DNA of 10,785 nt from Oscillospiraceae bacterium (GTDB lineage Bacteria > Bacillota > Clostridia > Oscillospirales > Ruminococcaceae), in contig JAEDNF010000032.1 of NCBI GenBank assembly GCA_016302655.1, positions 1 to 10,785 of the forward strand, given 5' to 3'. Below, one piece after another: positions 7,789 to 10,467 of the stretch; positions within the stretch are counted from its first letter, which is position 1; each line of letters starts with the position of its first letter. The notes beneath the pieces are model-generated. The model searched no databases and had not been told where the DNA came from. It worked only from the letters and a program-made list of their open reading frames with translations. A program made the position numbers and the translations under genes.

Positions 7789-7815
7789 CTTATTTTACAA
7801 CGGAGGTTGATATCT

Positions 7816-8490
7816 GTGGATAAGAAAGAGTTTAAAGAAAGACTTGCGGAAAACGAATATGAAAATATAAATGTTCTGCAGCTTTTCGGTTTGCAGGACG
7901 ATGTATATGTCGGCGGAAGTATTGAGATTTATCACAAACCCTGCGGTCATACCGACTGCGTAAATTTCAGACAAGGAATATACGAGAATACGGTTGTTGA
8001 CTGTATCAACGACTATTGTTCGGAATGTCGCAGAAAGATGAACAATACCGTAGAATTTGTAAAAGACTATATAGAGTGGTTATATGTTGATGTAACAAAC
8101 GATGCACACGGCAGAATAAGCATTATAAAAGAAGGAGATTACAGAGAGTTTTTCAAGAGCGATATCAATCTTGAAAAGTTTGCAAAGCTTCACTATTCAT
8201 CTTCACCCTCAGCACTTATGAAAGCCATAGATGAATATATTGTCAATGAGTCAAAGGCGTGCGAATCTCAGGGTAAGCGCACCGTTAAGATAGACAGCAT
8301 AAAAAACAGAATGACGCATTTCAGAAACAAGAGCGGTATAACACGAAAAGAGCTTGCCGACAGGAGCAAAATCGCTTTCAAAACAATAGAAAACTATGAA
8401 CTCGGCAGAACTAAGCTGACTTCCGTATCGGTTGAAAATGCATTCCGTATTTCAGAAGTGCTCGGAATCCGTCCCGAATATCTGATATAA
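7816..8490 (+). CDS. XRE-family regulator with an N-terminal Cys/His cluster
   Basis: The 224-residue protein has a C-terminal helix-turn-helix of XRE/Cro type at about 162-224: IKNRMTHFRNKSGITRKELA, then KIAFKTIENYELGRTKL and the closing LGIRPEYLI. I do not recognise the N-terminal 150 residues as a named family. They contain PCGHTDC (42-48) and DYCSECRRK (66-74), with C63 between, which could form a zinc-binding site from C43, H45 or C48 and C68, C71. GTG at 7816 is chosen because GGAGG (7802-7806) is 9 bases upstream; an in-frame TTG at 7807 would have no spacing. The gene has its own promoter and leader hairpin. The following hydrolase pair, 67 bases downstream with a separate promoter, is a plausible target but not a proven one. 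Confidence 0.8.
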   Translation: MDKKEFKERLAENEYENINVLQLFGLQDDVYVGGSIEIYHKPCGHTDCVNFRQGIYENTVVDCINDYCSECRRKMNNTVEFVKDYIEWLYVDVTNDAHGRISIIKEGDYREFFKSDINLEKFAKLHYSSSPSALMKAIDEYIVNESKACESQGKRTVKIDSIKNRMTHFRNKSGITRKELADRSKIAFKTIENYELGRTKLTSVSVENAFRISEVLGIRPEYLI

Positions 8491-8498
8491 CTTGTTTC

Positions 8499-8527
8499 TT
8501 GACATCGGCTGTTAAATAGAATATACT
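8499..8527 (+). promoter_or_regulatory. Strong sigma-A promoter for the hydrolase pair
   Basis: A perfect TTGACA (8499-8504) and TATACT (8522-8527) are separated by the optimal 17 bases. The start site should be near 8534, giving a leader of about 24 bases to the TTG start at 8558. A near-consensus promoter of this kind is likely to be strong unless repressed. Confidence 0.85.
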
Positions 8528-8557: not shown

Positions 8558-9490
8558 TTGTTACAGGATGTTGTTTCGGTTCAACTGCCAATTAATGAAC
8601 GGATCAGTATAAAGAAAAACCATTTCGAGCCGTATTCTCTGACAGGGGACGAAAAGAGGATATGTATAGTTACGGGTATTCACGGTGATGAGCTTGAAGG
8701 TCAGTATGTCTGTTATGAGCTGATACGCAGGCTGAGCGAGAACTGCCATCTCCTTAAAGGTATTGTTGATGTTTACCCCTCTATGAATCCTCTCGGTATG
8801 GATTCGATAAAGCGTGAAATGCCTATATTTGACCTTGATATGAATATGATATTTCCCGGCTCCGAGACCGGAGCTGTTGCAGAGCATATTGCGGCTGCTA
8901 TTATGAACGATATAAAAGGTGCGGATATATGTATTGATCTTCACGCAAGCAATATTTTTTTAAGAGAGATTCCTCAGGTTCGTATATCGGAAGAAACGGC
9001 TCCTGTGCTTCTTCCTTATGCAAAGATGCTGAATGTTGACTTTATCTGGGTACATTCAAGCGTAACGGTTATGGAGGCAACTCTGTCTCACAGCCTCAAT
9101 AAAGCAGGCACACCGACTCTCGTAGCCGAAATGGGAGCAGGAATGAGGATTACAAAGTCATACGGCGACCAGCTCCTTGACGGCATTTTCAACCTGATGT
9201 CAAAAATGGGTATATGGGCCGGCGAAGTCAAAAAAGTATCTCATCCTATAGTTTCAACCGACGGAAATGTATCTATTGTCTATTCCGATGCCTCAGGTAT
9301 ATATATCCCTGCAATAAAGCACTGGGCAGGTATTACAAAGGGCGACCATATCGGCGATATTCTTAATCCTCTTACCGGTACGGTAGAACAGCAGATATTA
9401 GCTCCCTGCAGCGGTATTGTATTTACTCTCCGCGAATACCCCGTTGTTTATGAAGGCTCGTTGCTTGTAAGAATATTAGGAGGATGCTGA
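8558..9490 (+). CDS. Succinylglutamate desuccinylase/aspartoacylase-family zinc hydrolase
   Basis: The 310-residue product belongs to the AstE/AspA metallohydrolase family (related to M14 carboxypeptidases), whose members cleave amide bonds of N-acyl amino acids or peptides. Zinc-ligand motifs are intact: TGIHGDE (39-45) supplies H42 and E45, and DLHAS (127-131) supplies H129. AEMGAG (190-195) supplies the likely catalytic glutamate E191. The usual N-R substrate motif before FPG is changed: MNMIFPG (95-101) has M97 where arginine is expected. The C-terminal 70 or so residues (SGIYIPA onward, with GTVEQQILAPCSGIVF) form the family's beta-rich domain. TTG at 8558 is supported by CGGAGG (8545-8550), 7 bases upstream. 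No signal peptide is visible, so it is probably cytoplasmic. The substrate is unknown. A degenerate paralogue follows after one base. Confidence 0.88.
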   Translation: MLQDVVSVQLPINERISIKKNHFEPYSLTGDEKRICIVTGIHGDELEGQYVCYELIRRLSENCHLLKGIVDVYPSMNPLGMDSIKREMPIFDLDMNMIFPGSETGAVAEHIAAAIMNDIKGADICIDLHASNIFLREIPQVRISEETAPVLLPYAKMLNVDFIWVHSSVTVMEATLSHSLNKAGTPTLVAEMGAGMRITKSYGDQLLDGIFNLMSKMGIWAGEVKKVSHPIVSTDGNVSIVYSDASGIYIPAIKHWAGITKGDHIGDILNPLTGTVEQQILAPCSGIVFTLREYPVVYEGSLLVRILGGC

Positions 9491-9491
9491 A

Positions 9492-10427
9492 ATGACCGTA
9501 GAAAATATATTCGGACTTAAATCGACCTACCGTGATGATTTTCAGATAAGCGGTTATCGTTTCGGCAAAGGTGAAAAGACCTGCTGTATAGTAGGCGCTA
9601 TGAGAGGAAACGAAGTACAGCAGCTGTATGTATGCTCTCAGATAATAAAGGCGCTCAGCGCAATCGAAAAAAAGGGTGATATCGCTCACGGAAAGCAGAT
9701 ACTTGTAATACCGTCGCTTAATCCTTTTTCAATGAATATTCAGAGAAGATTCTGGTCGGTCGATAATACCGATCTTAACCGTATGTTCCCGGGTAATGCC
9801 GAAGGCAAAACCACTCAGCGTATCGCCGCAGGAATTTTCGATGTAATTAAAGAATATCAATACGGTATTCAGTTTACTTCATTTTATATCTCCGGAGATT
9901 TCATTCCTCATGTGAGAATGATGGATACCGAGCATAAGAACATAGGTCTTGCAAATTTGTTTGGTTTGCCGTATATTCTGCTGAGAAAACCTAAACCGTT
10001 TGATACTGCAACTCTTAATTTTAACTGGCAGAACTCCAATACAAGCGCATTCTCGGTTTATACAAACGAAACTGAGCATATTGATGAAGAGTCGGCACAT
10101 ACAGCAGTAGCCGCCGTTCTGAGATTCCTGTCACGAATGGGCGTAATAAAATATCAGAGTCACGGCGGATATATGGCAACAACGCTTGAAGAAGAGCTTC
10201 TTATGTCCGTACACGCAAAATCCGGAGGCATATACCGCAGGATAAAGCAGCCGGGAGATGAGGTAGAGCAGGGTGAACCAATGGCAGAGATTCTTCATCC
10301 GTTTGAAGGCACAGTAACAGAAGAAATACTGGCTCCGGCAAACGGAATAGTGTTCTTTGCACATAAATCTCCGCTTGTCCTGGAAAATTCGGTGGTATAC
10401 AAGATTATAAAAAGACTTCATATATAG
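9492..10427 (+). CDS. AstE/AspA-family paralogue lacking zinc ligands (probable pseudoenzyme)
   Basis: The 311-residue product aligns with the preceding hydrolase almost without gaps: shared NP, FPG and IPxVR positions carry the same numbers, and the C-terminal GTVTEEILAPANGIVF is close. The active site has been dismantled. GxHGxE reads GAMRGNE (35-41), so the histidine is R38. DLH reads QFT (127-129), so H129 is T129. The candidate catalytic glutamate aligns with Y190. In contrast DLNRMFPG (94-101) keeps the N-R substrate motif that its partner has lost. The frame is intact and coding, so it is not a decaying pseudogene. AGGAGG at 9478-9483 gives the ATG an 8-base spacing, and only one base separates it from the upstream stop, so the two are surely cotranscribed. 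A regulatory or structural subunit is the likeliest role. Confidence 0.85.
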   Translation: MTVENIFGLKSTYRDDFQISGYRFGKGEKTCCIVGAMRGNEVQQLYVCSQIIKALSAIEKKGDIAHGKQILVIPSLNPFSMNIQRRFWSVDNTDLNRMFPGNAEGKTTQRIAAGIFDVIKEYQYGIQFTSFYISGDFIPHVRMMDTEHKNIGLANLFGLPYILLRKPKPFDTATLNFNWQNSNTSAFSVYTNETEHIDEESAHTAVAAVLRFLSRMGVIKYQSHGGYMATTLEEELLMSVHAKSGGIYRRIKQPGDEVEQGEPMAEILHPFEGTVTEEILAPANGIVFFAHKSPLVLENSVVYKIIKRLHI

Positions 10428-10431
10428 AATT

Positions 10432-10467
10432 AAGCCGTGTAAAGCAAGGGAACTTTACACGGCTTTT
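10432..10467 (+). terminator. Rho-independent terminator of the hydrolase operon
   Basis: AAGCCGTGTAAAG (10432-10444) and CTTTACACGGCTT (10453-10465) form a perfect 13-bp stem with an 8-base loop, followed by a short T-run. It starts 4 bases after the stop codon. The short A/T flanks on both sides might let it work weakly in either direction. Confidence 0.88.

Follow-up and report, generated by a model that had tools for sequence, protein, structure and literature searches.

In Clostridia, a zinc enzyme of the AstE/AspA type (A) and its zinc-less twin (B) form a real and widely kept gene pair. The window, that is, the whole stretch of 10,785 nucleotides that was analysed, carries one such pair, with A and B head to tail and one base between the stop codon of A and the ATG of B. 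Residues, predicted fold, conservation, co-inheritance and gene order were observed; from them we infer the lack of catalysis in B, physical contact between A and B, ligand binding by B and the class of substrate, in a reading to which we give about one chance in two: A and B would make up one bicistronic unit, consisting of a zinc amide hydrolase and a ligand-binding, zinc-less partner in a heteromer, with the product of a gene cassette as the ligand where this cassette is linked. The features of the window are:

8558 to 9490, + strand: gene A, AstE/AspA-type (M14-like) protein with zinc and catalytic residues intact, TTG start, 310 aa
9492 to 10427, + strand: gene B, zinc-less homolog of A, ATG start, 311 aa
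8681 to 8692, + strand: codons H42-G-D-E45 of A, with the zinc ligands His and Glu (H42 in 116/117 and E45 in 117/117 distinct sequences)
8942 to 8944, + strand: codon H129 of A, third zinc ligand (117/117 distinct sequences)
9128 to 9130, + strand: codon E191 of A, general base position (117/117 distinct sequences)
9603 to 9614, + strand: codons R38-G-N-E41 of B, replacing H-G-D-E (R38 in 121/121, E41 in 120/121)
9876 to 9878, + strand: codon T129 of B, replacing the third zinc His (A 81, T 34, P 4, S 1 and V 1 of 121)
10059 to 10061, + strand: codon Y190 of B, replacing the general base Glu (Y 120 and F 1 of 121)
8499 to 8527, + strand: candidate sigma-70 promoter TTGACA-17-TATACT, 5' of A (11/12 consensus match)
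10432 to 10465, + strand (scan: - strand): candidate terminator hairpin 3' of B, 14 pairs and then a short T run (pattern match)

Regarding the residues, the preliminary description had named H42, E45, H129 and E191 in A, and R38, E41, T129 and Y190 in B, within nearly collinear adjacent frames of 310 and 311 residues; both frames are present where it had placed them, all eight residues were read back, and the zinc enzyme next to a zinc-less homolog is a confirmed observation. By BLASTP, A and B share 27% identity over 290 columns (E 2e-31), nearly their whole length, and their profiles align with an HHalign probability of 99.9; BLASTP, MAFFT and HHalign all place the eight residues in matching columns. 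When the profile of B is aligned with PDB 2qj8, the catalytic Glu pairs with T191 and not with Y190, a shift of one residue; neither of the two is an acid, and the other three alignments (BLASTP, MAFFT, HHalign) give Y190. Both proteins are members of the Pfam family AstE_AspA_cat (PF24827, cut-off 25 bits), with 82.7 bits for A and 54.9 for B, and the single chains of both are predicted to adopt the AstE/AspA fold.

The closest group of known proteins is that of the AstE/AspA-like M14 deacylases, DoeB/EutE (6twl, 6twm), 3cdx, 2qj8 and 3na6, but A and B lie far below the equivalog cut-offs of NCBIfam: the DoeB model (402.7) is not reached by A (50.3) or B (33.9), the AstE model (305.65) is not reached by B (17.3), and the aspartoacylase model (180) is not reached by A (12.2) or B (13.9). 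These deacylases carry the zinc ligands, unlike B: the HxxE motif, the distal His ligand and the catalytic Glu that mark a zinc deacylase are all found in A, and B has in their stead R38, E41, A/T/P/S/V at position 129, and Y190. CphZ (8ein, 8eip) is a relative that shares the fold of the pair at an identity of 15-18%; to our knowledge, it has no zinc-less twin. It hydrolyses a cyanophycin dipeptide and acts in cyanophycin metabolism, where it too has an ATP-grasp ligase as neighbour (PMC10206079).

The residue pattern is not due to chance, given its near-invariance across the listed homologs: in window A and 119 of them, H42 is found in 117/118 rows that have no gap at this position, E45 in 118/118, and H129 and E191 in 120/120; in window B and 120 homologs, R38, E41 and Y190 are present in 121/121. 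The same holds for the distinct sequences of the fetched loci (117 for A and 121 for B), to which the counts in the feature list refer. Among the 121 of B, there is no variation at R38, Q43, Q44, N96, R97, N176 and Q180, while E41 and Y190 are found in 120 each, H140 in 117, and position 129 is never His; N96-R97 is the counterpart of the Asn-Arg pair of the aspartoacylase substrate site, with R97 in 121/121. The preliminary description had spoken of a dismantled zinc site in B, which is right as to the loss of the ligands and falls short as to what took their place, namely the equally conserved set R38-G-N-E41-x-Q43-Q44, N176, Q180 and Y190; the pocket of B is rebuilt rather than merely dismantled.

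As for selection, NG86 dN/dS values against the related locus L004 over 234 codons are 0.008/0.328 for A and 0.015/0.658 for B, and indicate purifying selection on both; together with the conserved motif set, they bear out what had been proposed for B, a full-length homolog without a zinc site that is under purifying selection. In addition, each of the two proteins is an old clade of its own: in a tree with 106 rows, the 45 of A and the 49 of B each group as one clade, with SH-aLRT values of 99 and 100 obtained by a quick method, the outgroups being on very long branches and L155 joining between the two clades. It is therefore very improbable that B is a decaying copy that persists only through its link to A; the zinc ligands are gone, as such a duplicate would have it, but B is full length, it is under strong purifying selection, and its new motifs, with the invariant residues listed above and E41 and Y190 in all relatives but one, are those of a protein that does not decay. 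Only a very recent spread would rescue the idea of decay, and the depth of both clades argues against it.

B might also owe the strict conservation of its pocket to a catalytic activity of a different kind, with another chemistry or another metal. R38, E41, Q43, Q44, N176, Q180, Y190 and H140 are conserved as in a catalytic site, and H140 and E41 were considered as candidate alternative metal ligands; however, at most one of the three zinc ligands is left and the base position is occupied by a non-acid residue in every alignment, which makes an active B unlikely. Judging by its residues, B would lack catalysis, and within the preferred reading of an enzyme with a ligand-binding partner, the rebuilt pocket would serve for recognition.

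The preliminary description had asked whether the two proteins always occur as a pair, and had held that a B commonly found alone would speak against it. A scan of genome contigs gave 80 loci among the matches listed, with A directly 5' of B in 67 and without an adjacent A in 13; leaving out the one at a contig edge (L039), the genomes with an unlinked B all carry A elsewhere (12/12 searched), beside its own second B in 4 and with no B within the fetched flank in 8, so that a B commonly alone is not what is found. Co-occurrence was then counted in two genome samples, which share some genomes with the 80 loci and are not independent of them; a completeness filter was requested, and the output gave no completeness values. 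The first was an even sample of 293 genomes from the class of G001: strong A occurred in 11 (at least 340 bits, next best 98), strong B in the same 11 (at least 266 bits, next best 89), and the two were adjacent in 10. In the second, 245 genomes from the order of G313, A occurred in 34, B in the same 34, and they were adjacent in 34/34. Overall, 43 distinct genomes have the pair, adjacent in 42, and the set with A is the set with B, so A and B go together in 43/43 positive genomes; G001 and G313 are the seeds, in which B was already known, and the positives are 41 without them.

A and B are probably one functional unit, since they are inherited together and often stand behind genes that resemble a peptide-making machinery. 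Of what the preliminary description had expected, the pairing is confirmed, and the heteromeric enzyme/pseudoenzyme complex would be the likely form of the unit. It is rather unlikely that B is instead a stand-alone ligand-binding or sensing protein, coupled to A through a shared metabolite and not physically bound to it. The strictly conserved pocket residues suit such a protein, and so does the fact that A and B are encoded apart in at least 8 genomes, which means that translation coupling is not needed; on the other side stand the adjacency in 42 of the 43 sampled positive genomes and the frequent overlap of stop and start (4 bases in 45/111 pairs, B taken as 312 codons), common for the subunits of complexes. 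A mirror-tree comparison of A and B gave r 0.73 over 903 pairs, with 0/500 shuffles as high, and adds little because species relatedness was not corrected. In two proteins (P0001, P0002), a shortened A is fused to a full B, by natural deletion or assembly error. Finally, the loci with a lone B in Oscillospiraceae share upstream neighbours, three of them with an aminoacyl-tRNA editing domain, NYN and thymidylate synthase by Pfam, and this is read as conserved gene order.

The proposed heteromeric unit gains a possible substrate from its neighbours, a link that the preliminary description had missed and that is a new lead here. In 33/80 loci (among the matches listed; phmmer), A and B close a five-gene run composed of a CP-ATP-grasp, an Alpha-E, a transglutaminase-like protein, A and B, on a single strand and in the same succession in every case; two more loci are interrupted by contig ends and have an incomplete cassette. 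One representative of each was assigned by Pfam: CP_ATPgrasp_2 with 450.8 bits, Alpha-E with 80.6, and Transglut_core with 79.7 together with Bact_transglu_N with 34.4; the transglutaminase-like proteins retrieved have the Cys, His and Asp typical of transglutaminases in 63/63. Three loci depart from the usual gene structure: at L118 7486-9024 (G214), Alpha-E is inside a longer frame of 514 aa, perhaps joined to the transglutaminase-like part, and at L063 6249-7579 and L057 2273-3413 the ATP-grasp gene is in two or three ORFs, by decay or sequencing error.

When Alpha-E was searched independently, it was found in 7/293 genomes, all 7 among the 11 with the pair, and in 23/245 genomes, 22 among the 34 with the pair; hypergeometric values are 1e-11 and 1e-21, with genome relatedness not corrected. 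Over both samples, 28/29 distinct Alpha-E genomes carry the A/B pair, and in 26 of these 28 a single contig carries the five genes in order, the other 2 having them split over contigs; the exception, G522 (L122 8535-11281), has the three genes of the cassette but no strong A or B. Such figures argue against a pair unrelated to the cassette, brought next to it only by a shared promoter for unrelated functions. This explanation keeps a modest chance, as the pair comes with no cassette in the window and in many relatives, and the trees of A and B require 5 to 6 changes in the state of the cassette.

Indeed, the full cassette is absent from 34/67 linked loci (among the matches listed), 2 of which end at contig ends, and Alpha-E is present in 6/32 and absent in 26/32 genomes of the locus set, picked mostly for having no linked cassette. 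In the window, no ATP-grasp/Alpha-E/transglutaminase cassette is beside the pair, and two HTH/MarR-type genes, a MarR-type gene and another HTH gene, are upstream instead; its nearest relatives L001, L003 and L004 are in genomes without Alpha-E, and the genome of L002 has Alpha-E on another contig. A substrate link through the cassette is therefore not general, and the repeated changes of state imply that some lineages, including that of the window, run the pair without it. Among 45 cassette-less loci (overlapping loci and short contigs included), no neighbour gene is common to more than 8, so the context is silent on the substrate of the window pair itself. Four loci, L009, L012, L014 and L111 (Clostridium where named), have genes 5' of the pair that we take to be aminotransferase-like and PucR-like.

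An operon with ATP-grasp, Alpha-E, transglutaminase and the proteasome-like Anbu has been described, and Iyer 2009 proposed for it a peptide-synthesis or tagging system; in the available parts of the papers, it has no confirmed role (PMC5666114, PMC6376114). Like the 33/80 loci (among the matches listed), it opens with these three genes in that succession, but it ends in Anbu and the loci here end in A and B. A proteasome-family protein was above the cut-off in 1/29 cassette genomes, on another contig, and below it in 2 more; the control for this search was positive in 10/14 genomes, including Caulobacter and Synechococcus, both also positive for Alpha-E. In Clostridia, A and B thus occupy the place that Anbu has elsewhere.

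Combining these elements, A, a member of the AstE/AspA-like M14 group, would hydrolyse amide bonds by means of zinc, and B would be its ancient paralog, which lost the two zinc His and the catalytic Glu and kept the fold, N96-R97 and a newly fixed polar pocket. B would then most likely bind the same kind of ligand as A without cleaving it and join A in a heteromer, where it would tune, position or gate the substrate of A. In linked lineages, the ligand would probably be an amide or peptide product of the ATP-grasp/Alpha-E/transglutaminase-like system, with A and B filling the hydrolase slot taken elsewhere by Anbu; in lineages like that of the window, the pair would work without a linked cassette. 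A wider version, speculative and with the odds against it, sees in the pair the hydrolase and the zinc-less reader of an undescribed peptide- or amide-tagging system of Clostridia: the cassette would attach or build an amide, A would remove it, and B would recognise it and gate A as a subunit, the pair replacing Anbu and, in some lineages, having survived its cassette to act on a different amide. For the widespread ATP-grasp/Alpha-E/transglutaminase system, no substrate is known in the accessible parts of the papers; should a small amide or tag be what A releases, the identity of the latter would name the product of the cassette.

Pairs of an enzyme and a pseudoenzyme exist elsewhere, zinc-less M14 carboxypeptidase-like proteins of animals among them, and likewise place active and inactive paralogs side by side; what differs here is the bacterial AstE/AspA-like group, the obligate co-inheritance and the link to an amidoligase cassette. 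The pair offers a clear natural example in which an enzyme and a re-tooled, presumably inactive paralog have stayed side by side across a whole bacterial class, and literature searches outside Iyer 2009 listed no paper that describes it. The rimK-rimB loci of two plasmids also have an ATP-grasp ligase beside an AstE/AspA-like protein and a RimK/LysX-family protein, but their ATP-grasp is of a different family and they have a single AstE/AspA-like gene versus two here. These neighbourhoods, of rimK, the RimK/LysX-family gene and the AstE/AspA-like gene, are at L162 1009-3400 and L163 1452-3837, on Phaeobacter and Vibrio plasmids; they were found in 2/4 plasmid or phage records examined, and those 2 are the best proteobacterial hits. 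The plasmid matches to B were set aside as general AstE/AspA relatives (below 60% identity, those listed 23-27%), and the matches in phage collections, unannotated 'Bacteriophage sp.' records from faeces, were read as probable host DNA; among the latter, the unverified record L165 (MT835471.1) has a B 91% identical and is probably host DNA.

As for the flanks of the window pair, the candidate promoter upstream of A is only suggestive, since the whole region has 9 sigma-70-like sites against a shuffle mean of 10.0, with no excess; the hairpin after B is likewise a candidate, by pattern match. Immediately 5' of the pair, at 7807-8490, is encoded a protein with a C-terminal HTH_3 domain and a cysteine-rich stretch. 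Finally, residue 97 of window A (8846-8848) is Met, where 107/117 distinct relatives have Arg beside N96 and 4 have Met; the substrate site of A may differ in the clade of the window.
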